Positions 2,003 through 19,036 of a DNA stretch of 24,461 nucleotides are shown piece by piece. Where the stretch lies: the IMG/VR virus record IMGVR_UViG_3300005748_000310, positions 1 to 24,461 of that record. One strand, written 5' to 3'. The first letter of the stretch is position 1. Each line of letters begins with the position of its first letter. The position numbers were made by a program, and so were the translations under genes. The stretch comes from a virus. The notes beneath the pieces were generated by a model. It had not been told where the DNA came from and searched no databases. It saw only the letters and a program-made list of their open reading frames with translations.

Positions 2003-2690
2003 TGTCATTCCAATCATCTTTATAGTTTTTAATATCTTCTTCAATCAAGCTACTGTCGCTTGAGAACGAACCAATTTTTTTAATCATTTTAGCTGCTGTG
2101 TCTCTCGTTACCTCATAGATACTTTTATATTGTTTAGTTCCAGAATTCACAAAACGCATAACATCGATATTTAGCTTTTTACACTTCATACCGATAAATG
2201 TAATTTGTTCACTTTGTATTCGATCATTGTCTTCTTGAGCCACATACTTAGACACATCTTTCTTACATAGCTCCTCAGCGGCCACAGCTCTGATTTTAAG
2301 AGCCTTTCGCAAAGATCTGGCTTCAGCCTTGGTTGAGGCCGTAGCTGCCGCGTGAACGCAAAATAGGTCGTCAGTATTGCCAGCCCAAACCTCTGCTGTA
2401 TCTCCATACGTTTTGGTTTTATCGCCAAGTTCAAAAACAACCTCATAGACAACAGTTGCCCTTCCAACACCATCTGATAAAACTGGAAATACTTGAGTTG
2501 GTTTGCTGCTAATAATTTCCCCTATGAGCATTTCAGCAACTCTCCTTAAGCCAGCGACGTTTGGATTGCCATCAATCAGTTCATTAGGCTGAAACAACCC
2601 CATAACATAATTATTCCACTCAGGTGAAAGATAGTGTGGAACCTCTTGTTGTTCTGACTCTTTAGTGTTAGACTCTTTTCGTTTTGCCAT
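1992..2690 (-). CDS. Conserved-looking phage protein; possible ssDNA-binding or annealing function
   Basis: The ATG at 2690 gives 232 residues and is preceded by GAGG with six-base spacing; a TTG at 2702 is in frame but lies upstream of that site. The middle region has a striking segment with alternating Ala/Thr and basic residues (HAAATASTKAEARSLRKAL, roughly residues 112-130) ending in AAEEL. The C-terminal 60 residues (from about ITFIGMKCKKLNIDV) look like the small helical tail found in several single-strand annealing proteins, where a similar pattern precedes a run of helix. This resemblance is from memory of motif style, not from a search, so the functional guess is weak. It overlaps the upstream endonuclease stop by 23 bases and the downstream zinc-ribbon gene by 11. 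The replication operon setting agrees with a DNA-related role. Confidence 0.65.
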   Translation of the reverse strand: MAKRKESNTKESEQQEVPHYLSPEWNNYVMGLFQPNELIDGNPNVAGLRRVAEMLIGEIISSKPTQVFPVLSDGVGRATVVYEVVFELGDKTKTYGDTAEVWAGNTDDLFCVHAAATASTKAEARSLRKALKIRAVAAEELCKKDVSKYVAQEDNDRIQSEQITFIGMKCKKLNIDVMRFVNSGTKQYKSIYEVTRDTAAKMIKKIGSFSSDSSLIEEDIKNYKDDWNDNAS

Positions 2691-3474
2691 TGCATACCTC
2701 AATTTCGATCAATCGTTTATTTTTACTAGGAAATTTTTCCTTAATCTTATCCAACTCAGACAAGATCGTCTCAAGCAAGGAATTCATTTTTGTCATTGAA
2801 ATACTTTTATCAATTTGTCTAATTCTAAGAATTACGTACCCATGGCTGATTAAAATACCTTGCTTTATAGTGTCCGCAGATTGCTGCTTACGCATCTTAT
2901 CCTCACCCCAAATAGGTAAGAAATGCCCCGGACCATCTATCTCAATAGCTGTTTTAACTTCTGGTAAAAATAGATCTACCTCAAGTTTACTACCCGGAAC
3001 TAGATTAGTCTTATGAAACATAACAGAGTATCCTGCGTTTGTCAAGCCATTTTTTAAATGTCTTTCAGTTTTTGACCCCTGCTTACTAGCTTCTCGCACA
3101 GCTTCCATTGCCATTCTTCGCATTTCACTCTTCTCTGAGTCACTCTTTTTTTCCCAAGCAGCCTTGCTCAAGCTAGACATTCTGTCCTTTTCCTTTTGCG
3201 GTAGGTCGTGCCAGCTCTTTGATTTTGACTCACCAATTTTACGCTTGTGTTCGTCTTCTAATTTTTTTCCTTTTGTTGGGTGGACAGTTCGTCCGCTCTT
3301 CAAAGAGTTTGATTGTGCCTGACTATATGTACGCCGCTCAACCCCTAAAAAGTCAAGCGCTCTCAAAATTCTAGTGGAGTAAGTATTCAAAGCCTCTGCT
3401 ACTTCATAGCTGCTTTTTTCTTCCTCGACATATAGTTTTATAATCTTGTCTTTATTTATTCTAGCAAATTCCAT
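2668..3474 (-). CDS. Free-standing homing-endonuclease-like protein (HTH + NUMOD3-like repeats + Vsr/EDxHD-like nuclease)
   Basis: The 268-residue product has three parts. Residues about 8-48 look like a helix-turn-helix (SSYEVAEALNTYSTRILRAL). Residues about 58-130 are Lys/Ser-rich with a NUMOD3-like motif (KLEDEHKRKIGESKSKSW), typical of DNA-recognition segments in homing endonucleases. Residues about 135-245 form a Vsr-like nuclease domain: E137, D167 in EVDLFLPE, then IEIDGPGHF (E178, D180, H184), and ILRIRQ near the end. The start has GGAG seven bases upstream and overlaps the previous gene by 19 bases. No intron or intein surrounds it, so it is free-standing, placed between the sugar gene block and the possible ssDNA-binding gene. 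Vsr/EDxHD proteins cut DNA and can spread their own gene; a repair role is an alternative. Its exact target is unknown. Confidence 0.75.
   Translation of the reverse strand: MEFARINKDKIIKLYVEEEKSSYEVAEALNTYSTRILRALDFLGVERRTYSQAQSNSLKSGRTVHPTKGKKLEDEHKRKIGESKSKSWHDLPQKEKDRMSSLSKAAWEKKSDSEKSEMRRMAMEAVREASKQGSKTERHLKNGLTNAGYSVMFHKTNLVPGSKLEVDLFLPEVKTAIEIDGPGHFLPIWGEDKMRKQQSADTIKQGILISHGYVILRIRQIDKSISMTKMNSLLETILSELDKIKEKFPSKNKRLIEIEVCNGKTKRV
2697..2700 (-). promoter_or_regulatory. Ribosome binding site deciding the start at 2690
   Basis: GAGG on the minus strand lies six bases before ATG 2690. The longer frame with TTG at 2702 would place this motif inside the coding region, so the ATG is preferred. 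Confidence 0.6.
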
Positions 3475-3915: not shown

Positions 3916-4680
3916 CTATTTTCCTTTACTCTCTAGAACCATTTTAGATAACTTATTAAGACCTATCTTTAATAGGATATCAGACATTCTATCGTAATTA
4001 GTATACCTCTCCTCAATTTCTGCCTTAGATATAAAATCCCCCCTAAAGGACTTGCCATCTAAAGCGTCACGTATGTCTTCAACAAACTTGTCATCGCTGT
4101 CGTGAATCACTGGGTTGCCGCCAGAGTAAATAACATCTAAAAGTTTAAAGCTTAGCTTCGACTCTTCTGGAGATGGTTTATTAACAAGAACGCATTTTGA
4201 CATGTTGAAAAACTTTTTATAATTCTCAAATTGACAGGCTCCGCAATAGTTCGTAATCGGAATGTTGGTGTTGTGAATAATTTTAAAGTTAATGCTTGAG
4301 TCGCTCTGAAACTCAGAAACACAGTCTGGAAGTAAAGATGGGCTACCAACATAAACAATATCTGACTTATACCTAACGTCGTGAAGGTCTTGATCCGTTA
4401 TTCTAATAAACGGCTCAATATAATTCTTAGACGATTCATTCCTATAAGAAAAGCAGCTTGGGGAGTCTATTTCGTTGACACCAATACTGATAGCGTCCTT
4501 ATATTTAACAACGTCGGTTTTTTCTGAATTATGTATGATGACGTCTGGATCAAACTGGCTAATGTCAGAATCGCTTATATCCATAGACGAATGACCGACT
4601 GTGGCGTCTATATTATTAAGAGCTTCCAAAAGTATATGGTAAAACATATCACTTTCATCAGTCAACATTAATATTTTCAT
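3916..4680 (-). CDS. Putative GT-B-fold glycosyltransferase (CgeB-like/GT1-like C-domain)
   Basis: The 254-residue product starts with a Rossmann-type strand (MKILMLTDES) and contains DVIIHNS and DIVYVGSPS, typical of the two Rossmann-like halves of GT-B enzymes. The segment NIPITNYCGACQFENYKKFF followed by NMSKCVLV and then KLLDVIYSGGNPVIHDSDD matches the usual end of the donor-binding domain, where an acidic residue and a Gly-rich turn contact the nucleotide sugar. It is shorter than most GT-B enzymes (commonly 300-400 residues), so the N-domain is reduced. AAGGAAA lies before its ATG, which overlaps the upstream stop by one base (TAATG). Donor and acceptor are unknown. Confidence is moderate for the fold and low for activity. 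Confidence 0.6.
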   Translation of the reverse strand: MKILMLTDESDMFYHILLEALNNIDATVGHSSMDISDSDISQFDPDVIIHNSEKTDVVKYKDAISIGVNEIDSPSCFSYRNESSKNYIEPFIRITDQDLHDVRYKSDIVYVGSPSLLPDCVSEFQSDSSINFKIIHNTNIPITNYCGACQFENYKKFFNMSKCVLVNKPSPEESKLSFKLLDVIYSGGNPVIHDSDDKFVEDIRDALDGKSFRGDFISKAEIEERYTNYDRMSDILLKIGLNKLSKMVLESKGK

Positions 4681-8415: not shown

Positions 8416-8936
8416 TCATCGTATCCTTTAATTGATGCTTCTAGTTTGTTTAGCATTTTCTTCACTTTAGTAGACGAAACTCCAACCTGACGAGAAATTT
8501 CTGCATTAGATTTTCCTTTGGATTTGAGCTTTACGACTTTATGAGTTAGTGTATCACTATCCCCAATGTATTCATCTATCTTAATATCTGGGTTATAATA
8601 GGAGTTGCCACTAATAAAGGAACTATTAAAGAAAGTGCTTTTCCTGCGCTGGTCACCACTACCGGACAGAGGAAGAGAATCAAATCGCGATTGGTGGATT
8701 TTGTTTTCGTCATGGTTTTTCTTAATAAACTTTATCATACTATTTTTTACACAATGGCAAATAAAAGTTGATAGTCGTGATCTTTCGCTGTTATAATTAT
8801 TCAAAGATGTAAGTAAGTTAACCACCCCAACCTGAATCAAATCCTCCACGCAGTATATGGAATTTTTTCTATACAGATTAGAAGCCATTTTGTTAACAAG
8901 GCCCATGTTTTCTTCAATTGTTTTTTCAATATTCAT
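8412..8936 (-). CDS. Phage RNA polymerase sigma factor (sigma-70 family)
   Basis: The ATG at 8936 gives 174 residues; a TTG at 8951 in the same frame, three bases past the upstream stop, is possible but lacks any ribosome binding site, while GAAAG precedes the ATG. Residues about 8-73 match sigma region 2: NMGLVNKMASNLYR, then the core-binding helix VEDLIQVGVVNLLTSLNNYN and RLSTFICHCVKNSMIKFIKK, which corresponds to the -10 recognition and melting helices. A Ser/Asn-rich linker (about 80-120) follows. Residues about 129-170 hold a region 4-like helix-turn-helix (KSKGKSNAEISRQVGVSSTK). The protein would direct host RNA polymerase to phage promoters, probably middle or late ones. It has no visible region 1 or 3. 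No promoter consensus could be derived from this window. Confidence 0.8.
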   Translation of the reverse strand: MNIEKTIEENMGLVNKMASNLYRKNSIYCVEDLIQVGVVNLLTSLNNYNSERSRLSTFICHCVKNSMIKFIKKNHDENKIHQSRFDSLPLSGSGDQRRKSTFFNSSFISGNSYYNPDIKIDEYIGDSDTLTHKVVKLKSKGKSNAEISRQVGVSSTKVKKMLNKLEASIKGYDE

Positions 8937-8953
8937 TTTCAATTCTTTCAATG

Positions 8954-9265
8954 TTAAGCGTCAATCAAGTTGGTTGATGACACGATTTTAAACTCATTAA
9001 TTCTAAAGTATACGTCTTTATTTGTTTCACGGATCTTCGCCGTGGCGCTGATCACTAAGTAATCTCCTACTGTGCTATTGTGTTCTAGGGTTTCAGCTGC
9101 TGAGTCCCAAGCTTCAAAATTAAGCGCTGATTTTTCTATAACCGGAAGTCCCGATTTAGATTTTCGTTGCTTTTGCACCTCAACCTGTAATTCTATTCTG
9201 CTAGTGTCATACCTCTTTGTAATGGACCTCGAAACAATTTTACCAAAAAATTTGCAATCATTCAT
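8954..9265 (-). CDS. SSB-like OB-fold single-stranded DNA-binding protein
   Basis: The 103-residue product fits an OB-fold SSB pattern: an N-terminal strand with a conserved Gly (CKFFGKIVSRSI), a basic loop (QKQRKSKSG), then LNFEAWDSAAETLEHN, which is the SSB landmark of an aromatic residue in an F-x-AW-like strand followed by the AE..L helix, and VGDYLVISATAKIRE with FRINEFKIV at the end. It lacks the Gly-rich linker and acidic tip that recruit partners in bacterial SSB, so it is short even for a phage SSB. It would coat ssDNA during replication and recombination. It lies between the Pol III fingers gene and the sigma factor; AGGT precedes the ATG by about seven bases. Confidence 0.75.
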   Translation of the reverse strand: MNDCKFFGKIVSRSITKRYDTSRIELQVEVQKQRKSKSGLPVIEKSALNFEAWDSAAETLEHNSTVGDYLVISATAKIRETNKDVYFRINEFKIVSSTNLIDA

Positions 9266-9273
9266 TATTCTAC

Positions 9274-10818
9274 CTAAATGCTAAACATGTTATCAACTAT
9301 AAAAGACTTTCTTTTTGAATGCTTTGTCTCACCAGTTATTAAGACCGTTGATTCATTATATATTGTATCCCTGTGTTGGCTATATACGTCAGGAAAAATG
9401 ACAATATCTTCTAATTCGCCCGAATTATCTTCAACAGCTATAAAAGCCATCGTTTCATCATTCTTTGTTGTGTGTTCCATAACCTTTTTTATCACGCAGG
9501 CTATTGTGCATTTACCTTTCTTGCCGTCTGACACCTCCACACACGTACTGTCAGCATGTGAGGCGTCGGCGCAAGCATCTAACTCAGAAGACGTTACGGA
9601 GCAACCTAAGAGCTTCTCTTCCATCTTAGCGTACATGGCTGGATTGTCAGACAGTTCTCGTCCCGGATTTTCCAATCTAGATATGATTTCGTCAACTTTT
9701 AATTGTCTTGTTACACTAGATATATACCCGCCATCCTTCTTCACACCTTTAGCCGCGAAAAGTTTTATATGATCAAGTAGTGTATTCTGGTTATTTTGCT
9801 CATCAACACCCTCACATAAATGAGTAAGCTCTACTTTAGTTAGTTGTTTAACGCAAGAGAATTCATGAAGCATGCTACTTCTTGATTTTCCCAACCCACT
9901 AAAGAAGCCAACCTTTATTAGATTTTCTACAGATCTTTTATTTATGTTTGGCAAAATGATAGTAACCAACTCAAGCCAAGTTAGCGGCCTATCCCATTCT
10001 GATATTAGTTTAAGATATTTGTCTAGATGGGCTTTACCAACACTCTTTACGTTACAAGCTCCAAAAAATATCTTCCCCTCTTGTTTAGTAAAGTTTTCAA
10101 ATGGGTACTTAATAGATGGGCCTACAACCTCCACACCATCTATTTTAGCAGCCATTATCAATTGGTGACGCTCAGTATCAGTATCTTGCTTGTCGTCGGA
10201 GTTGCGTAGCCAAAACTTAAAATACTTATCTATGTAATGCCGCTTTAACCACGCAGACCAATATGTAACTTGTGCGTATCCAACAGCGTGAGATTTATTA
10301 AAACTATACCTTTGACTCTCTTGAATGATATCGAAGACTTCTTGAGCTTTTGATTCATCAATACCTTTGTTTATAGACCCTCTAATAAAATTAGAGCGAA
10401 CCTTACCCATTAAATTTGCGTCTTTTTTACCAATAGCCTTCCTTAAGTTATCAGCTTCTTTTAGAGAGAATCCGGCCATCTTCTCGGCAATTTGCATCGC
10501 CTGCTCTTGGTAAACGATAACGCCGTAAGTTTCTTTTAATATATCCTCAATTGATTCATGCATGTAGTCTACATCTTCTGTGCCAGCTTTCCTGTCAGCA
10601 TATCTTTCTGTCATCGTCTTGCCATTAACTTTAGCAGAAACACAACCCGGTCTAATCAAGCTGATTACAGCCGCTAGTTCTACAATATTCCTTGGTTTAA
10701 GTCTTTGACACCAAGTTTTACCAAGGTAGCCCTCAATCTGAAAGCAGCCCTTAACACGACCTTCTGATAACATATCCCAAACTTGCGAATCTTCAAAATC
10801 AAGGTCTTCAATCTTCAT
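9274..10818 (-). CDS. dnaE: DNA polymerase III alpha subunit, C-terminal part (fingers, HhH, OB fold)
   Basis: The 514-residue product is the C-terminal half of a family C polymerase. It begins at the linker after the palm: DSQVWDMLSEGRVKGCFQIE (10-29) matches the DDxxxxxLL..GdT.GVFQLES landmark. Fingers motifs follow: LIRPG (54-58), YGVIVYQEQAMQIAEKMAGF (98-117), LRKAIGKK (125-132) and FNKSHAVGYAQVTYWSAWLK (173-192). A HhH-like segment (NLIKVGFFSGLG) comes later and the last 80 residues form an OB fold (KCTIACVIKKVM, then DNSGELEDIVIFPDVY). No palm catalytic Asp is present; they are in the gene at 11534-13393. The ATG chosen has GGAG at 10825-10828 and overlaps the exonuclease stop by 11 bases; the longer frame would start at 10860. 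No tau-binding tail is visible. The product must pair with the N-terminal half to be active. Confidence 0.9.
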   Translation of the reverse strand: MKIEDLDFEDSQVWDMLSEGRVKGCFQIEGYLGKTWCQRLKPRNIVELAAVISLIRPGCVSAKVNGKTMTERYADRKAGTEDVDYMHESIEDILKETYGVIVYQEQAMQIAEKMAGFSLKEADNLRKAIGKKDANLMGKVRSNFIRGSINKGIDESKAQEVFDIIQESQRYSFNKSHAVGYAQVTYWSAWLKRHYIDKYFKFWLRNSDDKQDTDTERHQLIMAAKIDGVEVVGPSIKYPFENFTKQEGKIFFGACNVKSVGKAHLDKYLKLISEWDRPLTWLELVTIILPNINKRSVENLIKVGFFSGLGKSRSSMLHEFSCVKQLTKVELTHLCEGVDEQNNQNTLLDHIKLFAAKGVKKDGGYISSVTRQLKVDEIISRLENPGRELSDNPAMYAKMEEKLLGCSVTSSELDACADASHADSTCVEVSDGKKGKCTIACVIKKVMEHTTKNDETMAFIAVEDNSGELEDIVIFPDVYSQHRDTIYNESTVLITGETKHSKRKSFIVDNMFSI

Positions 10819-11500
10819 CTTGTTCTCCAAATGCGTTTCGGAAGTTTTTTCTGGATGCAAGAGTTCTAAGCATGCGCATCATTTTGCAAAACAATTCAGC
10901 AGTCATCATAACGTCAGACATAGCGTCGTGAGCCCGGCCTTTAGAATACCCCATGTGCCCACGAATCAGATTATCAGCAGACAGAGAATGAACCTCTTTG
11001 TTATTTTCAAACATGGTAAACATAAAATCTAGCATATCTAAACTGTGAATATTGTTAAACACATCCTGTCTACCCTTCTTATCTATTGGTCCAAAATTGT
11101 ACGGATCTTTTGTACAAAGTCGATCAACGATGGGGTTATCAAAGTTTGTTATGTTATAACCCACAGCAATAGGGGCTGTAAAATTACTACTTTTAAAGTT
11201 ATATTGCTTAACGTACTCTGTAAAGTTCTTCCAAACAGCCTCTGTAGACGGTGCCTCTGCTAACATCTCCGCCGTTTTTCCATGAACAGCCACAGCCCCG
11301 TCCTCTAACATGTCCACGCCATGCTTATCACACTCCTCCTGCGTTAAATATGGTTTCATTAAAGATTCAAATTGAGACCCTTTTTTTATTTCTAACTTTC
11401 GACCGTGGACGACAACGGCAGCAATTTGAACAGGTTGCGTTGTCAATGGGTTAGGACTAGTTGTCTCAAAGTCATACACAATGTAATCACGATAATTCAT
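10808..11500 (-). CDS. DnaQ-like DEDDh 3'-5' exonuclease, probable proofreading subunit
   Basis: The 230-residue product carries all DEDDh exonuclease motifs. Exo I is IVYDFETT with D10 and E12. Exo II is GYNITNFDNPIVD with D121. Exo III is RAHDAMSDVMMTAELF with H191 and D196. These residues bind two metal ions and remove mispaired 3' ends. The length is close to that of bacterial epsilon subunits. The gene lies exactly between the two halves of Pol III alpha: it starts 33 bases after the palm gene, with GAGGAAA before the ATG, and its stop overlaps the fingers gene by 11 bases. This position makes a proofreading role for that polymerase very likely. A more general nuclease role is possible. 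The annotation of chemistry is firm; the partnership is inferred. Confidence 0.9.
   Translation of the reverse strand: MNYRDYIVYDFETTSPNPLTTQPVQIAAVVVHGRKLEIKKGSQFESLMKPYLTQEECDKHGVDMLEDGAVAVHGKTAEMLAEAPSTEAVWKNFTEYVKQYNFKSSNFTAPIAVGYNITNFDNPIVDRLCTKDPYNFGPIDKKGRQDVFNNIHSLDMLDFMFTMFENNKEVHSLSADNLIRGHMGYSKGRAHDAMSDVMMTAELFCKMMRMLRTLASRKNFRNAFGEQDED
10825..10828 (-). promoter_or_regulatory. Ribosome binding site deciding the start of the Pol III C-terminal gene
   Basis: GGAG on the minus strand lies six bases before ATG 10818, inside the last codons of the exonuclease gene. It shows that the second polymerase half has its own translation start, coupled to the exonuclease, rather than arising by frameshift. 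Confidence 0.7.
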
Positions 11501-11533
11501 AAATTTCCTCTGGTAATAAATTTGTTATATTTT

Positions 11534-13393
11534 TTAGTCATTATTTATTTCCTCAACGGTTTCAGATATTTTTTTTAAAATTGAAACACCTAGAATATCA
11601 AACTTAACACAGCCGATGGCTTCTAAATCTCCCATTTCAAGCCCCGCTATCTTATCGTTATTTCTAGACGCCTTGACCATAGGACAAACTTCGTCTAAAG
11701 GATCTGAAGCGATGACAACTCCAGCAGCATGTTTTCCTTGAGTCTTAAAAATACCCTCCATCCTCATAGCTTGATCAAAGACCTTAGCGTGATCACCAGA
11801 TAGCTTTCCGTCGTCATCTAAGTAGCAATAGTCTGATAAAGCATCTCTGTCATTTTCAAGAGCCCACCTGATAACAGATGGATTCTCCATTTCTTCAAGA
11901 AGGTCAGAAATATCAGCTTGGTTTGGTATCTTCTTGGTTATTTCATTCATCTCTTCAAAAGAGCAGGCTTCGTTTACACGTAAAACCTCTTTAATGATAG
12001 ATCGTCCAGCAAGTCTACCAAACGTTAGCATCTGACAAACTTTATTCCCGCCATATTTATCTTTTAAATATTGAATAACTTTCTCACGCCAGTCGGGTGG
12101 AAAGTCAACGTCGATATCAGGTAGTGAAATATGATCCTCTGTATTTCGCCCCTCGTTATAAAACCGCTCAAAGATTAATCCGTATTTAATGGGGTCAACG
12201 CTTGTTATCCCAGTCAGAAAGCATACTAGTGATCCACCACCACTTCCACGTCCCGGACCTATTAAACACCCTTTGTTTTTAAAGTGGTTTACATAATCCT
12301 GCACAATTAAGAAGTAACCAGCTAAATCAGCTTTCTCGATAACCCCAAGCTCTTTTAAAACTCTGTCTTTATAAGTTTCTACCTGACTCTTGTCTATTTT
12401 ACCGTTTAGAAATTTAGCCCATCCATCACGGCATAACTGTTTGAGATAATCGTTTTCGTTGAGTCCTTGAGGGCATTGAAACTTTGGCAGTCTTGGCTTG
12501 GATAAAATAGAAACATCCTCACATTGACTAATGAGTGACTCCATATTTTTAAACACATGGCTGTCTTCGGAGTATAAACCATCTAACTCTTCCACTGTTT
12601 TAATATTGAATTGGCTACTTCTAATAAACTTGACAAGGTCTTGCTTTTCGCCACTATCTATTTGTAGTGCTAATTTCTTAAGCGTTGTTTTTAGCTGCAC
12701 GCATAGAAGAACGCGATGGTCTATTGAATCACTCTCGTTGCAATAGTAGCTACATGTGTCATAAATACTTAGCGATTTATCAACATCAACCTGTTTCACA
12801 CATTCAGACATTATGTTGATTGCTGGCATTGTGTCAAAAACTTGATTATTGATTTCTAGATAGTAACTATTGAAAAAGCCTTTAGACTCTTTCACGTACT
12901 CATTAGCCTCTTCTAGCCAGTTATCAATCAAGAAACCATTAACTTCATCATCGTCAGCTGAATACACTGCGCTTGACGGAGATGTAAATAACTTATAAAA
13001 TAAGCGTGAGCCTATGTACCCATCAATTACAATGAAATTGTCAGGAGAGACCATGTCTGTTAACTTGTCATAGCTTATCTCTGGATGCTCGTTATAATTT
13101 TCTGGATCATTACATAGCGATATTAGTATTAGCAACTGCCGCCAAGATTCGTTATTTTTGCAAATTAATGTAAGACTACCTCCGCAACTAAGTTTAATCT
13201 CTGACCCGATAACGGGCTTTACCCCTTTATCTTTGCATGATTTTAAAAAGTTTACACATCCGCTAACAGTGGTTAAGTCTGTCAACCCGACACATTCATA
13301 GCCGGATTTTACACATTTGTCTACAACTTGCTTAGGTTTAGAAGTTGATAACAACAAAGAGTAATGTGAATGATTTCTCAAAGAGGCTAACAT
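11534..13393 (-). CDS. dnaE: DNA polymerase III alpha subunit, N-terminal part (PHP + palm)
   Basis: The 619-residue product is the N-terminal half of a family C replicative polymerase. Residues 1-70 are a PHP domain (LRNHSHYSLLL, then VGLTDLTTVSG and VIGSEIKL); the His of the usual TDH motif is Leu40, so its metal site is probably inactive. Residues about 350-619 are the palm: GYFLIVQDYVN, GPGRGSGGGSLV (379-390), LPDIDVDF with catalytic D426 and D428, GKHAAGVVIA, and VKFDILG with the third catalytic Asp, D599. The protein stops 20 residues later in the variable linker that leads to the fingers in intact DnaE. The remaining domains are in the gene at 9274-10818, and together the two total 1133 residues, near the 1160 of E. 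coli DnaE. No intein motif is at the break. Confidence 0.92.
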   Translation of the reverse strand: MLASLRNHSHYSLLLSTSKPKQVVDKCVKSGYECVGLTDLTTVSGCVNFLKSCKDKGVKPVIGSEIKLSCGGSLTLICKNNESWRQLLILISLCNDPENYNEHPEISYDKLTDMVSPDNFIVIDGYIGSRLFYKLFTSPSSAVYSADDDEVNGFLIDNWLEEANEYVKESKGFFNSYYLEINNQVFDTMPAINIMSECVKQVDVDKSLSIYDTCSYYCNESDSIDHRVLLCVQLKTTLKKLALQIDSGEKQDLVKFIRSSQFNIKTVEELDGLYSEDSHVFKNMESLISQCEDVSILSKPRLPKFQCPQGLNENDYLKQLCRDGWAKFLNGKIDKSQVETYKDRVLKELGVIEKADLAGYFLIVQDYVNHFKNKGCLIGPGRGSGGGSLVCFLTGITSVDPIKYGLIFERFYNEGRNTEDHISLPDIDVDFPPDWREKVIQYLKDKYGGNKVCQMLTFGRLAGRSIIKEVLRVNEACSFEEMNEITKKIPNQADISDLLEEMENPSVIRWALENDRDALSDYCYLDDDGKLSGDHAKVFDQAMRMEGIFKTQGKHAAGVVIASDPLDEVCPMVKASRNNDKIAGLEMGDLEAIGCVKFDILGVSILKKISETVEEINND

Positions 13394-13394
13394 T

Positions 13395-13604
13395 CTACAG
13401 CCACTCCCCTAGCAACTTCAATGCTTTATCAGAAAATTCGACTTCGCCCTCTAGTGAATTTATCGATTTGCAAATGTCTGGACCAGACGCTACCAACCAA
13501 CGCTTAAAGGACAAATTTTTCAACGAGTCCTTACGTGGAGAAGGTGCCATATTTTTTAATTCTTTTTTCCAAATGCTCTTTAATGTTTTTGTTGTAATTT
13601 TCAT
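13395..13604 (-). CDS. Small basic hypothetical protein upstream of Pol III
   Basis: This 69-residue frame is Lys-rich at its N-terminal end (TLKSIWKKELKNMAPSPRKD) and more acidic towards the end (LEGEVEFSDKALKLLGEW). No family is recognised. It fits the one-base to 30-base spacing of the operon: it starts 28 bases after the RecB-like gene and its stop lies one base before the Pol III start. A GGGAG motif for the polymerase gene lies inside its last codons. No membrane or metal motifs. It is likely real given the gap it fills, but could be a spurious frame. Confidence 0.55.
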   Translation of the reverse strand: MKITTKTLKSIWKKELKNMAPSPRKDSLKNLSFKRWLVASGPDICKSINSLEGEVEFSDKALKLLGEWL

Positions 13605-13632
13605 ACTTCACTTTCAATTTAATAGATGTTTG

Positions 13633-14646
13633 TTAATCGTTTGCCCCTTCTAACCTTCCTCCCCCCTGTCCATACTTAGCTATCCGTTCTATGTTTGCGT
13701 ACTTTGCTGTAACCTCTCCGATACCATGTAATTGTATCTTATCCTTGAACATTTGGCAAGTAGATTTTCCAGTTTTTTTGTCGATTTCGGAAAATTTGCA
13801 AAGATATTTACATTTCCAATGTGAGTGGTCTGGTGATAACTGTTTTGGATTATCGTTGTTCCTAATTTGATGAAATTTCTTCCTCAGTAAGTTTTCAGCT
13901 TTATTATAATCCCTCTCATCGAATACAACATCAAAAACACCTCCCGCATTAATGTAATAGATACTTACGTAGAATGAATAATCTGGGTAAAGATTCTTAA
14001 GAGCGTAGTAGTATAGCAGCAACTGCGTGTCCTTATGCAGGTCATCATGGGTTTTTTCTTCTCCAGTCGCCCAGTTTAACCTCTTTCCAGTTTTGTAGTC
14101 TAGGATTTGAAAGTATTTTTCACCTTCTTTCGCTATAACGTCTACAGTGCCCTTAATCGACAAGTATCCTGAAAGCTTTTTACCCCCAACTTCATAATCG
14201 TACTTTGCCCAGTCTTTCTTGATCTCAATATCAAAATATTGTTCAGTTGCAAAAATATCTTGATTTCTTGGGTCTAACTCCCCATTTTTATGAGATATTG
14301 CTTTGTAAGTCCAGTTAGTACACGTTCGTAAATCTTTATCTTCTAAAACTACTTCACCCTTTTCTACCTCCGCGTAGTAATCAAAACATAATTTTACAAT
14401 ATAGTCAATATCATCACACTGTTCGAACGTTAAATCGATTAAGTCATCATTGACAACTTTATCCTCGCCACGGCTCATCGCTAGTTTTTTATCACCAAGG
14501 ATTTGTAAAGCTCTGTGAACTATTGTACCAAGAACGGCTTTTTTATTTGTTTTGTCTTTATACCCCAAAACATATTGAAAAAAATACTTCATTTCACAAA
14601 ACTCCATCGTCCCTGCTGAGGAGCTACGTAAATAGCAAACTATCAT
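13633..14646 (-). CDS. RecB-family PD-(D/E)XK nuclease with putative Fe-S cysteines
   Basis: The 337-residue product has the RecB/Cas4/AddB-type nuclease signature: a Cys near the N-terminus (C17 in MEFCEMKYFFQYV), GTIVHRALQI with H44, IKGTVDVI with D169, and ILDYKTGK with D183 and K185, plus QLLLYYYAL with Q208. At the C-terminus, WKCKYLCKF gives C279 and C283, and C297 follows; with C17 this matches the four-Cys pattern that holds an iron-sulfur cluster in AddB and Cas4 nucleases. The enzyme would resect or process DNA ends in recombination or replication. It is placed between the dNMP kinase and the small gene before Pol III alpha; GAGGT precedes the ATG. A stand-alone nuclease without helicase partner is known in phages. 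Fe-S binding is inferred from spacing. Confidence 0.85.
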   Translation of the reverse strand: MIVCYLRSSSAGTMEFCEMKYFFQYVLGYKDKTNKKAVLGTIVHRALQILGDKKLAMSRGEDKVVNDDLIDLTFEQCDDIDYIVKLCFDYYAEVEKGEVVLEDKDLRTCTNWTYKAISHKNGELDPRNQDIFATEQYFDIEIKKDWAKYDYEVGGKKLSGYLSIKGTVDVIAKEGEKYFQILDYKTGKRLNWATGEEKTHDDLHKDTQLLLYYYALKNLYPDYSFYVSIYYINAGGVFDVVFDERDYNKAENLLRKKFHQIRNNDNPKQLSPDHSHWKCKYLCKFSEIDKKTGKSTCQMFKDKIQLHGIGEVTAKYANIERIAKYGQGGGRLEGAND

Positions 14647-14649
14647 ATT

Positions 14650-15534
14650 CTACCTCGCACTAGTGGTTCCAAGACGCTTATTAAAGCTCCTTATTTTTTT
14701 AGTAAATCCCATATCAACAACGATATCTAAAAATGAACCACATAACCGATCTACTGTCATGTCTCTATTATCAATTACCGCATCAAAACCTTCATAATTA
14801 TCCATATCAACTTCTGAACTGTGATTGTTAGTGTAAACATCTCTTTTTAAACCAATCACAACACCTCCAGCTTTTTTAATAGCCTCAGCTTCGCTAACAA
14901 AGCGACAGTCTGATATAATAGCAATTGGAGAATTATCGTACTTGATTCTATTTAAACAGTTGTCAACCCAAACATCTTTGTTGATTTTCCTCATTATTTC
15001 GGTGCCGAAATACTGCATGAATTCGCGTGCTGTCATTGGGCCGGGTTCGTGAGTTGTTAATGTAGAATAGTCAGAAGGCCAAGTGAGCGGTTGTTTATTA
15101 GCGTCTTGAACGTCTCCATAAATATCTGTTCCAGAGTCGGTAACGACTCCCGGCATATTCTCCCACATAATATCTGTTAAGCTATTTTTATTACTATCTA
15201 AACCATAAACTTGCTCATATGACAATCCAAATAAGTTGATGCATATTTCTTTAAGAGAGTCGGCAAAGTTATAACCTTTGATCAAAGGCCATATAAACCT
15301 TTGGGCATAATTAATAAAATCTTCTGACTGTTGCCACAAATCGAAAACTGCCGTTCCCTCTTCGTCTTTACCCTTGTCGTCAAACTGAACGTAATTAACA
15401 ACAAGGTTTCCAAATTCATTTATAGAAAAGTCCTGTATCACATCGTGCAACTTCATTTCATGCCCGTGCATAAAGTTTGACAAAGTACTTTTACCGCTCT
15501 GTTTTTTACCGGCAATAGCAATTATTTGAGTCAT
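14650..15534 (-). CDS. Deoxynucleoside monophosphate kinase-like P-loop protein
   Basis: The 294-residue product begins with a beta strand and Walker A loop (IIAIAGKKQSGKST, residues 4-17). The C-terminal part has IAIISDCRFVSEAEAIKKAGG, the second core strand with a DxR motif followed by the helix that in phage dNMP kinases contributes to binding, then VIGLKRD. These fit the family of T4 gp1-like and other phage nucleotide kinases that turn dNMPs into dNDPs. It is longer than the 180-240 residues usual for that family, because of an insertion of about 80 residues between the P-loop and the second motif. It supplies precursors for the replisome encoded beside it. AAGGA precedes the ATG. The specific substrate is not visible. 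Confidence 0.75.
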   Translation of the reverse strand: MTQIIAIAGKKQSGKSTLSNFMHGHEMKLHDVIQDFSINEFGNLVVNYVQFDDKGKDEEGTAVFDLWQQSEDFINYAQRFIWPLIKGYNFADSLKEICINLFGLSYEQVYGLDSNKNSLTDIMWENMPGVVTDSGTDIYGDVQDANKQPLTWPSDYSTLTTHEPGPMTAREFMQYFGTEIMRKINKDVWVDNCLNRIKYDNSPIAIISDCRFVSEAEAIKKAGGVVIGLKRDVYTNNHSSEVDMDNYEGFDAVIDNRDMTVDRLCGSFLDIVVDMGFTKKIRSFNKRLGTTSAR

Positions 15535-15558: not shown

Positions 15559-16548
15559 TTAGAATAAACCTTTGATTTGAGGTTTTATAATTTTGTTGAT
15601 TTCTTCTGTTGTCATATCACCAACGTCGCATGTCGGAGTAACAACATCATAAACATTAAAAGATAGCTTTAGTTTATCTCTTGCTTTTGATCTGCAAACA
15701 CCACCAGCGTCATCATTGTCTGTCATGATAACTATGTTTAAAGCCCCACTTTTCTGAAGCAGGAAAACTTGAGAGTCAGAAATGTTAGAACCAAATATGC
15801 CAACAGCATTTTTTATTCCAGCCTCGTAAAGTCTAATAACATCTCCCTGCCCCTCTACTAGTATTATAGTACTGGTGCGGCTAATATCGCTCAACACTTT
15901 TCCATAATTGTACAAATAACTGGCTTTATTAAACCCCTTTTTGTTAATCCATTTTTTTACGTCGTTAGAGATTGTCCTACCGACGCAACCGATCATAAAC
16001 TCATCAGACTCATCATAAACTGGAAAAACAGCTCTATTGTACATTTCTGACCTAAAGTCCTTACAAACTCCAACATCAAAATGATCTAGAGCCTCAGGAG
16101 AATAACCTCGGTCAAGATAGTATTGGCATGGGAATACAAGCCTGCTCCTGACCTGCGATCTATCATATTTACCCTTAGTTTTTGTTTTTGAGTTTGCTGC
16201 CAATATGGAGGACAAAGTATCTCGTTTGTTAGAAAATTTAGAAAAGTCTCCGTCAACATCCTTTACAAAATCTTCACAAAAAGACAAGACTTTAGTGAAT
16301 GGCACTTGATCGCCATTCTTGAGGGACATTAGCTTACCGATAAGAGCTATAATATCATTGCCATCCTCATGACACCGCTTTGTATTACAAAACCAAGTTC
16401 CGTAAAAGACATCGTCGTGATCGATATTGATATTGAAAGCTGTGTGGTTATCGCCCTGATGGACTGGGCAGGCAGATGTTATTTTAAGATCGCCGTGAAA
16501 GCAATCGTAAATTTCAAAAAAATTTAATAAGTCAGAAATTCGGGTCAT
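15559..16548 (-). CDS. DnaG-type primase (CHC2 zinc finger + TOPRIM)
   Basis: The ATG at 16548 gives 329 residues and overlaps the dnaB stop by 17 bases; the longer frame from 16611 would overlap it by 80 and adds no motif. The CHC2-type zinc finger is C27-P-V-H30 and C54-x4-C59 (WFCNTKRCH), which binds template. The TOPRIM core has IILVEGQGDVIRLYEAG with E232 and later MTDNDDAGG with D277 and D279, the metal-binding residues for RNA primer synthesis. It lacks the C-terminal helicase-binding domain of bacterial DnaG, so it is a short phage-type primase. It follows dnaB directly, matching its role on the lagging strand. Confidence is high for function; moderate for the start. Confidence 0.85.
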   Translation of the reverse strand: MTRISDLLNFFEIYDCFHGDLKITSACPVHQGDNHTAFNINIDHDDVFYGTWFCNTKRCHEDGNDIIALIGKLMSLKNGDQVPFTKVLSFCEDFVKDVDGDFSKFSNKRDTLSSILAANSKTKTKGKYDRSQVRSRLVFPCQYYLDRGYSPEALDHFDVGVCKDFRSEMYNRAVFPVYDESDEFMIGCVGRTISNDVKKWINKKGFNKASYLYNYGKVLSDISRTSTIILVEGQGDVIRLYEAGIKNAVGIFGSNISDSQVFLLQKSGALNIVIMTDNDDAGGVCRSKARDKLKLSFNVYDVVTPTCDVGDMTTEEINKIIKPQIKGLF

Positions 16549-19036
16549 CAGCTTCATCTTCAGCTGAAGCATCTTCTGCGTCTGGTATTCCTTTGTATTC
16601 GTCTTTAGCATTTTTATTTATCTCCCGTATTGTTCCTAATTCTGTGACTCTAGCAAATTCTCCATCCATTTTTAAACATATGTATCCCTCATCTTCCATT
16701 CCGGGACCGTGACGAGATACGATTGGTATTAATTTTTTGTCACCATTTAGAATGCCGTCAGCAGCCTTCTCGTCCTCAGTCTTGTTTTTGAAAATTGAGA
16801 AACTCGTACAAAGCCACACAAGCCTATCTGAGCCACTTACAACATCGGTACTCTCCTTTGTCTCACCATCTCTATTTAGCTGCACAAAAGCCAAACAGGC
16901 GACGTCGTGTTCAACACAGAAGTTATGTAGCTGTGTTATCTGGAAACCAAGAACTTGAAACTCGGCTAGGTTGCTGCTAATACTAGCCGCGCTCATTAAC
17001 TTTAAGTAGTCATAGATTATTAAACAATCATTAAGTCTACCGTTCTCGTCATATCCAACATTTTTAAGAATCCACCTTCTAGCAATAGAAATCGTTTCTT
17101 CAAATGGTTTACCGGCGATGCTAATATACTCATATGGTATATCATTTATTTCTTGTACCGCTTGGTTAACTTTGTCAATTTTATCTGGATCGTCAGCAAA
17201 TGCCCCGGTAGCTATATCATTAATTTCTACACCGCTAATATTTGCTAAAATTCTATTCCAATGATCTTCCTTGCCCATCTCTGTATCCAACATTAAGACA
17301 GGAGTCTTCAATTCTTTAGAGACGTGCATAGCCACCTCATCAGCGAGTAATGACTTCCCAGTATTGTGCGTTACGACATAGTTGTCTGTCATAAACAAAC
17401 CATCATTTTCAGATAAAGTTAAACATCTGGCATTATCATTGCCTACTTTTTCTATGCTGGATATTACCCTTTTCGTTAAGCTATTTGTTCTTTTAGTAAA
17501 TGCATCCTTCTTTCTTTTAAGCCTGAACGGATTCACACCTTCTGGAAGCCTAATCTCACACCTGTATGACTGGAAACTCCTACCGTTACATTTTGTAGAA
17601 CATTTGTTAATTGAGCAAAGCCCACCAAGCGATTGTACGATCTCTTTTACGTCTTCACATAATTGTAAAGATACTGATCCAAATCTGGTTCTTGATTTAT
17701 TGGTTCTCCTATCAATAGTACAATCACCGTCAGTATCTAGCAAACCGGCTAAAACAGCCAATCTTACTTCTTGTGTGTTATATATGTATTTTTTTGGCAC
17801 AAATTTGCTGTAACAATTATGCCCAAAGATTCCAGACTCACGTAGTTGGTCTTGAAATGAGTTAATCCTATATGAATTGCATTTATTTCCTTCTACATGT
17901 CTATCAATCTTTATATCCAATCCTAAAGATTCTGCATACGAACTCATGTAGGTGTGAATTTCTTCGTCAGCTGTGTGATAAACGCAAGTGTTATTACCTA
18001 CAGACCCGTCACCTAAAAGAACTCCCAAAGCATATGGGTCTATAGGAACATCCTGCTGCTCAAACTCGACAGGGTCAGGAAGTGGGACAGACCATTTGGA
18101 TCGACCTTGATTACCATATGTGATATCATCAATCAATTCCTTTGTGGTTTTTAAATGCTCCTTATGACCTCCGTACATTAAGTTAACATGCCAAATATGG
18201 TCCTCGCAACAATCGACAAAATCACCATCTTTAAAAGATATTCGATATATGTCAACGCCCTTGTGTGGCCAAACCTCTGTTACGGTTGTCTCGCCCTTTG
18301 TCGGATGAAGCACTTTATCACCAACCATAACGTCTTCAATTTTTACTGGGCCGGTAGACTTATATACCAAAGATCCGTCACGAAGAGCTTTTGGCCTTGC
18401 GGCTATCAAGTCAACACACTTTCGCCTAAGACCACCACCGATAGCCTTGTCGTAAATTGAAAACCCGGTAGATAGTCCAATACTCTGAGCTTTATTGTTT
18501 TTCACATGCTCGATATATTCTTCCAGTGAATCACCCAGTTTAGTCGGGGTGTTATTGTCTTCACGAGTATATGACATGCAGATATCCTGAATGGGTTTTT
18601 CTGCTATGGATAAAATTTCTGTAATGCTTTCGTCTCCAGAAATATCATCCAACCCCCTATAAATATCTCTTAGCTCATTCTGGACATTTCTAGCAAATTG
18701 AAGTCTTCTTATTTTAGCCGCATGAAGCCTAACGTTTTCTATGTCGATAGGTGTATTTATTACCCCGTTGACATGTTGCATTACGTCTTGGCGTTCGATG
18801 TATTCGCTAAGTCCTAAACTCTTTGCTGATGAAAGTATTTCAGTGAAACCAATTTTTTCACTTTTCTTAACCGCGTCTTCTACGCACTTAAATAAAACCT
18901 TATTATGGTCTAGAGTAAAAGTGTCTTCATCAATCAACATCTCAACATCAATGAAACAGTCTATACCGTGGCTAAATATACCAGCCAGAACAGCTCTTTC
19001 AGAGGCAATATTTTTCAAAGCACTTTCTTTTGGCAT
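16532..19036 (-). CDS. dnaB: Replicative DNA helicase DnaB, interrupted by an in-frame class 3 intein
   Basis: The 834-residue precursor contains an N-terminal helical domain (1-150), a linker, and the RecA-like helicase core split by an intein. The extein before the intein ends GGGLRRKCVDLIAARPK (200-216) and resumes TGKSLLADEVAMHVS (559-573), so the intein breaks the Walker A loop. After splicing the helicase has 492 residues, near the usual DnaB size. LMLDTEMGKEDHW gives the next core motif (H1a-like), and CLIIYDYLKLM and CLAFVQLNRD mark the Walker B and sensor strands. The spliced protein unwinds the phage fork and recruits primase, encoded just downstream. GGAAGGGA precedes the ATG. Unspliced precursor should be inactive because the P-loop is broken. 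Confidence 0.92.
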   Translation of the reverse strand: MPKESALKNIASERAVLAGIFSHGIDCFIDVEMLIDEDTFTLDHNKVLFKCVEDAVKKSEKIGFTEILSSAKSLGLSEYIERQDVMQHVNGVINTPIDIENVRLHAAKIRRLQFARNVQNELRDIYRGLDDISGDESITEILSIAEKPIQDICMSYTREDNNTPTKLGDSLEEYIEHVKNNKAQSIGLSTGFSIYDKAIGGGLRRKCVDLIAARPKALRDGSLVYKSTGPVKIEDVMVGDKVLHPTKGETTVTEVWPHKGVDIYRISFKDGDFVDCCEDHIWHVNLMYGGHKEHLKTTKELIDDITYGNQGRSKWSVPLPDPVEFEQQDVPIDPYALGVLLGDGSVGNNTCVYHTADEEIHTYMSSYAESLGLDIKIDRHVEGNKCNSYRINSFQDQLRESGIFGHNCYSKFVPKKYIYNTQEVRLAVLAGLLDTDGDCTIDRRTNKSRTRFGSVSLQLCEDVKEIVQSLGGLCSINKCSTKCNGRSFQSYRCEIRLPEGVNPFRLKRKKDAFTKRTNSLTKRVISSIEKVGNDNARCLTLSENDGLFMTDNYVVTHNTGKSLLADEVAMHVSKELKTPVLMLDTEMGKEDHWNRILANISGVEINDIATGAFADDPDKIDKVNQAVQEINDIPYEYISIAGKPFEETISIARRWILKNVGYDENGRLNDCLIIYDYLKLMSAASISSNLAEFQVLGFQITQLHNFCVEHDVACLAFVQLNRDGETKESTDVVSGSDRLVWLCTSFSIFKNKTEDEKAADGILNGDKKLIPIVSRHGPGMEDEGYICLKMDGEFARVTELGTIREINKNAKDEYKGIPDAEDASAEDEADDPNF
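17363..18388 (-). mobile_element. Class 3 intein (WCT signature) with LAGLIDADG homing endonuclease, in DnaB P-loop
   Basis: The intein spans residues 217-558 (342 residues) of the helicase precursor. It begins with Ala217, not Cys or Ser, so the standard first splicing step cannot use residue 1. Block B has EDHIWHV with W282, block F has ARCLTL with C538, and block G ends VVTHN with T556, H557 and N558, followed by extein Thr559. W, C and T at these sites are the class 3 signature, where the block F cysteine starts splicing. Two LAGLIDADG helices, YALGVLLGDGSVG (335-347) and LAVLAGLLDTDGDC (426-439), mark an endonuclease that could cut intein-free dnaB alleles and copy the intein in. Both acidic residues (D343 and D436 or its neighbours) are kept, so the nuclease may be active. 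Confidence 0.9.

Follow-up and report, generated by a model that had tools for sequence, protein, structure and literature searches.

A phage lineage whose DNA polymerase III alpha subunit is encoded in two genes with an exonuclease gene between them

Here, we analysed a 24,461-nucleotide (nt) stretch of viral DNA (the window), positions 1 to 24,461 of virus record IMGVR_UViG_3300005748_000310, and confirmed that it encodes a DnaE-type (C-family) alpha subunit of DNA polymerase III (Pol III) whose gene is cut in two, palm on one side and fingers on the other, and that a DEDDh exonuclease gene lies inside the cut. As judged from sequence, this split replicase is real, conserved and functional-looking. 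The genes lie on the minus strand and are transcribed in the order alphaN, exo, alphaC, with the following features:

11534-13393, minus strand: alphaN, the PHP, palm and thumb half of alpha, 619 amino acids (aa) (Pfam, PHROG_405, phmmer)
11501-11533, minus strand: 33-nt gap from the alphaN stop to the exo ATG, with GAGGA at 11510-11506 (sequence)
10808-11500, minus strand: exo, a DEDDh 3'-5' exonuclease, 230 aa (Pfam, PHROG_192)
10825-10828, minus strand: GGAG, likely the ribosome site of alphaC itself, six bases before the ATG at 10818 and within the end of exo
10808-10818, minus strand: 11-nt overlap of the exo end and the alphaC start (sequence)
9274-10818, minus strand: alphaC, the fingers, HhH and OB half of alpha, 514 aa from the ATG at 10818 (Pfam, PHROG_405, phmmer)

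The PHP, NTPase/palm, fingers and HhH parts of a C-family polymerase are all present across the two halves (Pfam, PHROG_405), but in two frames with exo between them and not in one polypeptide. In Pfam, alphaN matched PHP (4e-22) and DNA_pol3_alpha (1e-71), while alphaC, scanned from an upstream TTG at 10860, matched DNA_pol3_finger (5e-47), HHH_6 (4e-7) and, under the curated cut-off, an OB fold (1.6e-4). This TTG is not needed for alphaC, because the ATG at 10818 is preceded by GGAG at 10828-10825. The two halves abut on the profile PHROG_405 (1190 positions), alphaN at 45-616 and alphaC at 617-1077, and exo matched RNase_T (1.5e-15) and PHROG_192, a DNA polymerase exonuclease subunit. A preliminary description of the stretch had assigned PHP and three palm Asp residues (D426, D428 and D599) to alphaN and fingers, HhH and OB fold to alphaC, had counted 1133 residues in the two halves (619 + 514) and had placed the exonuclease gene between them with its stop overlapping alphaC; all of this agrees with our results, the OB fold at a sub-threshold score.

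The same description had placed the break in the linker between palm and fingers, and alignment to E. coli alpha (5fku_A; phmmer) supports this location. The alphaN alignment ends at residue 573 and that of alphaC begins at 589, which places the break in a linker of about 15 residues (E. coli 574-588), so the cut would remove little more than the linker. The motif FNKSHAVGY occupies alphaC 173-181 (FNKSH, 173-177), deep within the second half as had been described.

Single-protein scans of IMG/VR with the window halves reached one to three contigs, and profile queries were needed to find relatives. From profile searches of IMG/VR and of one-genome-per-species contigs, we inspected 161 distinct records, comprising the window, IMG/VR contigs and two contigs from metagenome-assembled genomes (MAGs). 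The order alphaN-exo-alphaC, on one strand and in separate frames, was found in 145 of them, which are all of the records with three separate genes; 15 of the remaining 16 lack one or two genes in the DNA examined, and in the last (L030) palm and fingers are fused. These searches were seeded with split genes and used best rows only (in one case the best 80 of 541 relatives), which could favour split forms. In a control search seeded by the fused protein of L030, 78 of 79 newly fetched loci were split in the same order, the 79th was the contig of L030 itself, and the 80th row was L206, previously counted as split. By name comparison, six of the 78 contigs had been counted before, so the cassette is present in about 217 distinct records. 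The window and contig 3300005731_000081 do not differ in either half but are counted apart, and many records are near relatives; collapse at 85% identity left 90 split representatives. Conservation of order and strand exceeds chance, and the gene order proposed earlier as a check is very strongly kept. In two relatives whose alphaN is about 60% identical, these three genes are present and more tightly joined; several of the joins consist of overlaps or few-base gaps.

Among 80 loci from genome_contigs, palm and fingers are in one frame in 76, the cassette is present in two, alphaN is lacking in the DNA examined in one, and the last is L156, a bacterial MAG contig titled cov 1.05 with a single in-frame TAA at 4447-4449 in the same palm-finger linker, which may be an error. 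The two cassette-bearing MAG contigs, L112 (Flavobacteriales) and L113 (Lokiarchaeota), are probably phage contigs and give only a weak hint of the host. An exo query found no relative in genome_contigs and one weak match in the phage collection, in phage Rctr197k, where the 12 kb flanking the match on each side contain no annotated alpha.

Several observations point to function. The palm residues D426, D428 and D599 of alphaN and the exo residues D10, E12, D121, H191 and D196 (DEDDh) are invariant in all 137 aligned records; the PHP metal-ligand His residues of alphaN are mostly lost. The ratio of nonsynonymous to synonymous substitutions (dN/dS) is 0 to 0.06 for 22 of 24 computable values (three genes, 13 pairs) and 0.21-0.23 for two values from the pair L004/L005, while 15 further values were uncomputable with saturated synonymous sites; these substitution rates show purifying selection on the cassette genes. 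Close to where the domain starts, a Shine–Dalgarno-like motif lies before a possible start codon of alphaN, exo and alphaC in 91, 109 and 79 of 145 records, respectively, as compared to 70 of 431 internal control sets. The AlphaFold2 model of alphaC alone (predicted local distance difference test score, pLDDT, 89) has 14 PDB matches at E <= 0.001, each a Pol III alpha chain. For the exo model (pLDDT 87), the first 50 of 309 Foldseek matches at E <= 0.001 include ExoI, RNase T, DnaQ, DinG and PolC exonuclease, and the invariant D-E-D-H-D site lies on this DnaQ fold. Each of 14 contigs of 119-244 kb has a single alphaN gene or one set of its pieces (two pieces where there are internal breaks or gaps), and neither a family B (PF00136) nor a family A polymerase was found in any of the 14, with positive controls. 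The lineage looks like tailed phages, because Terminase_6N matched in 7 of the 14 contigs; a tail sheath match was found in none of them.

The fused record bears on the origin of the cut. Among the 161 records, L030 (7968-12457) is the only one with palm and fingers in one chain; its alpha has a break near profile position 412 instead, where a LAGLIDADG open reading frame (ORF) separates the pieces, and its exo (14668-15327) lies 2.2 kb downstream of the fused chain. In a FastTree tree of 114 rows, a single group (support 100), separate from bacterial and intact phage DnaE, unites the 90 split representatives with L030, which lies inside it. L030 again falls within the split group in an IQ-TREE tree of 41 rows, where the split rows form a group without L030 in 0 of 200 bootstrap trees, and the approximately unbiased (AU) test rejects such a group (p 0.00274). 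The preliminary description had held that a relative with an intact palm-finger gene would count against the split; such a relative exists once, but since it is nested in the split clade its fusion looks secondary. On the simplest reading of these trees, the linker was cut a single time, probably in the common ancestor of this lineage, and was re-fused once; in other phages this linker has been broken independently.

We consider it very probable that the core replicase consists of separate chains, made from the alphaN-exo-alphaC operon cassette and held together non-covalently, as suggested by the separate frames and start sites and by the conserved catalytic residues. The halves would be separate chains because no intein or known intron was found between them and because some joins are few-base overlaps or gaps, and they would act as one enzyme because the palm-finger chain of L030 nests in the split clade. 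AlphaN would supply the three metal-binding Asp residues along with PHP, palm and thumb, alphaC would supply fingers, HhH and OB, and the DnaQ-like exonuclease would supply proofreading. Each gene would be started separately, with tight overlaps favouring equal, ordered synthesis. The alpha halves most likely dock via the extensive palm-finger contact of one-chain alpha, which would make the lost covalent linker dispensable. Exo probably binds the PHP domain of alphaN, because epsilon binds this domain in E. coli (PMC3642679) and PHP is found in alphaN alone.

Some points weigh against this assembly. L030 is placed with moderate branch supports (89/83 and 91/98), and another polymerase could be missed, because all contigs may be fragments. 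A recognised beta clamp was found in 0 of the 14 contigs, clamp-motif-like strings occur in just 36 of 137 alphaC and 28 of 137 exo tails, and no clamp-binding motif could be settled among these 137 alphaC and exo tails. In addition, physical assembly, activity and the place where exo binds are inferred.

The cut may have been a by-product of mobile endonucleases, to which we give somewhat less than an even chance. A homing element would have fractured the gene, perhaps first with a split intein since lost, and the break would have been fixed neutrally, with exo in it by chance. Consistent with this, alpha in L016, L073 and L074 has breaks with split-intein-like ends and an endonuclease-like ORF between them (weak Pfam matches to NUMOD3 and DUF559, below cut-off), a LAGLIDADG ORF lies at the other break of L030, and one break in phage G has an annotated homing endonuclease. 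However, no intein remnant is seen at the palm/fingers junction in 145 records, and exo is not mobile; that all complete split records have it suggests selection. A homing-element origin concerns how the cut arose; it is compatible with assembly from separate chains and does not exclude it.

We think it unlikely that the exonuclease is a structural bridge, that is, a protein that contacts both alpha halves and is needed for their assembly, with its gene kept in the cut for this reason. The bridge would fit the position of exo, which is flanked by the halves in all 145 complete separate records and in 78 of 79 later loci, even with other ORFs in the gaps, and a conserved short tail after the exonuclease domain, in which a loose F..[AS]F-like pattern, chosen post hoc and without a control, occurs in 135 of 137 records. 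By contrast, no exonuclease separates the halves in Corynebacterium phage P1201 and Rossellomorea phage phiT1, which share this cut, exo of L030 is displaced from the fused chain, and coupled translation alone could explain the gene order. In addition, E. coli epsilon attaches to PHP (PMC3642679), a domain confined to alphaN. We are equally doubtful of an obligate three-chain core, in which the exonuclease, as a structural subunit, would link the chain on the palm side to that on the finger side, so that polymerase and proofreading would be assembled, and could be regulated, as one.

Rejoining of the halves by a split intein, by an exo-containing intron or by ribosomal frameshifting or bypassing is disfavoured and appears very improbable. 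Inteins and split-intein-like ends do occur elsewhere in alpha of relatives, and the DnaB of the window seems to contain an intein. At the junction, however, there is no room for an N-intein, as the alphaN tail past the aligned region is at most 26 aa in 145 records and at most 11 aa in the 78 loci of the control search, and no HN ending was flagged before alphaC in the 145 records, with no intein profile run. Because of these short tails and the unflagged HN ending, an intein at the junction is unlikely, in line with the earlier statement that none is visible there. Rfam gave no match in window positions 8900-13700 up to E 1 or in eight relatives at the gathering threshold, and exo, about 690 nt long, is complete as an enzyme gene and has a start site of its own. 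Decay or artefact, meaning a broken gene, a misassembly or halves with unrelated jobs, likewise appears very improbable: although homing-endonuclease-like genes are scattered through the locus in relatives and single breaks do occur in low-coverage MAGs (L156), catalytic residues are invariant, dN/dS is low, and recurrence across independent assemblies of many metagenomes already refutes a sequencing or assembly error and shows the cassette to be real.

Further breaks and inserts were seen in the alpha genes of relatives. AlphaC is broken again between FNK and SH in L016 (3497-6440), L073 (7968-10815) and L074 (6162-9014), with the split-intein-like ends and intervening endonuclease-like ORF mentioned above, and alphaN is broken again between GPGRG and S, with ends that look by eye like those of split inteins, in L029 (5870-8717) and L079 (3116-6409). 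In L004 (10494-12857), an intein-like insert of 268 aa, which includes an HNH-like stretch, lies in alphaC between IRPG and C; alphaC of the near-identical L005 (10494-12053) has no such insert. Passenger genes also occur in the cassette gaps, for example, a uracil-DNA glycosylase in L029 (8916-9485; 1.8e-32), a DNA/RNA non-specific endonuclease in L079 (7268-7972; 1e-41) and, separating exo from alphaN in L048, L058, L059, L060 and L073, a small conserved ORF (FSGCSI...YQVWS...; about 71 aa). In the window itself, a DnaB-like helicase (16532-19036) has an intein-like insert after the Walker A region, with matches only outside about residues 211-558, and a homing-endonuclease-like gene (PHROG_559, 6e-14) lies at 2668-3474.

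A CGC motif is added at the alphaC N-terminus in 54 of 145 records (e.g., L018 10578, L012 7172 and L208). It is accompanied by Cys replacing Asp before the fingers in all 51 readable records; 77 Asp-bearing records have no CGC, and 10 records have Cys without CGC. A zinc site in the CGC-bearing members is possible. AlphaN of these members keeps the PHP His ligands that are lost in the clade of the window. A fourth zinc ligand shared between the halves was considered and rejected: because the covarying alphaN columns look like PHP metal ligands, shared descent explains the covariation.

A replicative polymerase is usually regarded as having one catalytic chain. In this case, an entire lineage of uncultivated phages, as far as visible, would replicate with a polymerase that is divided between its palm and its fingers, and the exonuclease gene appears to have been retained in the cut by selection in relatives down to about 35% identity. 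The lineage may serve as a natural test of which polymerase contacts suffice without a peptide bond, as a ready two-part polymerase for engineering, with L030 as its natural fused counterpart, and as a case for asking if gene order guides replicase assembly. It is also a warning for annotation, as two partial dnaE genes may be one enzyme.

We compared the cassette with other split polymerases. A junction-spanning 221-aa query from L030 gave 1264 matches in 50,697 phage records. Most isolates have an intact junction, because 1245 of the 1264 matches cover at least 80% of the query in one place (19 have low coverage); in an even sample of 60 rows, each match is a single piece and 58 exceed 80%. 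Two isolates share the linker cut. In Corynebacterium phage P1201 (gp59/gp58; NC_009816), alpha lies in two adjacent genes, the first half reaching profile position 610 of 613 and the second starting from 10, but the ORFs overlap by 29 nt, the exonuclease is not between them, and the junction is unbroken in the relatives Kimchi1738 and Darwin (about 60% identity). In Rossellomorea phage phiT1 (gp20/gp18; PV767480), both halves are annotated as alpha, but a 49-aa ORF lies between them in place of an exonuclease; in the FastTree tree, phiT1 is placed apart from the split clade, subject to a long-branch warning. Bacillus phage G also has Pol III alpha in several genes (gp329/gp331/gp339), whereas its breaks lie near profile positions 410-418 and before the third catalytic Asp, with a homing endonuclease and other genes between. 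Possible further split alphas are the short viral proteins of the BFVD entries A0A3G2KGE5 (phage Fowlmouth, 463 aa), A0A1J0MHX0 (phage PA5, 569 aa) and A0A6J5RLW8 (422 aa, named Intein C-terminal splicing region), which match the alphaC model.

In the archaeon Methanothermobacter, the B-family replicase PolB1/PolB2 likewise consists naturally of two chains held together non-covalently. The cyanobacterial DnaE split lies before CFNKS. Cyanobacterial DnaE, like that of the window, comes from two genes, but its halves are rejoined by a split intein (PMC3919608) within the fingers, whereas the window has no signs of an N- or C-intein and its break is not beside FNKSH. The contrast with cyanobacteria drawn in the preliminary description holds for the window, but some relatives have extra breaks at FNK/SH and GPGRG/S that look, by eye, split-intein-like. 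Group 2.2 jumbo phages encode a minimal Pol III alpha catalytic module as two stand-alone proteins expected to reconstitute the enzyme (Iyer et al. 2021, PMC7824862); in the available text of that source, the cut is inside the catalytic module, the genes are distant, other Pol III domains are absent, a family B polymerase is present alongside, and an exonuclease in the cut is not mentioned. The present cassette has adjacent genes, a PHP domain, a cut after the palm, and no PF00136 match in 14 large, possibly incomplete contigs. Novelty is reduced because P1201, phiT1, phage G and the jumbo phages already show split Pol III alpha, and the literature searched, as available in part, gave no description of a conserved, lineage-wide cassette in which the exonuclease gene occupies the cut.

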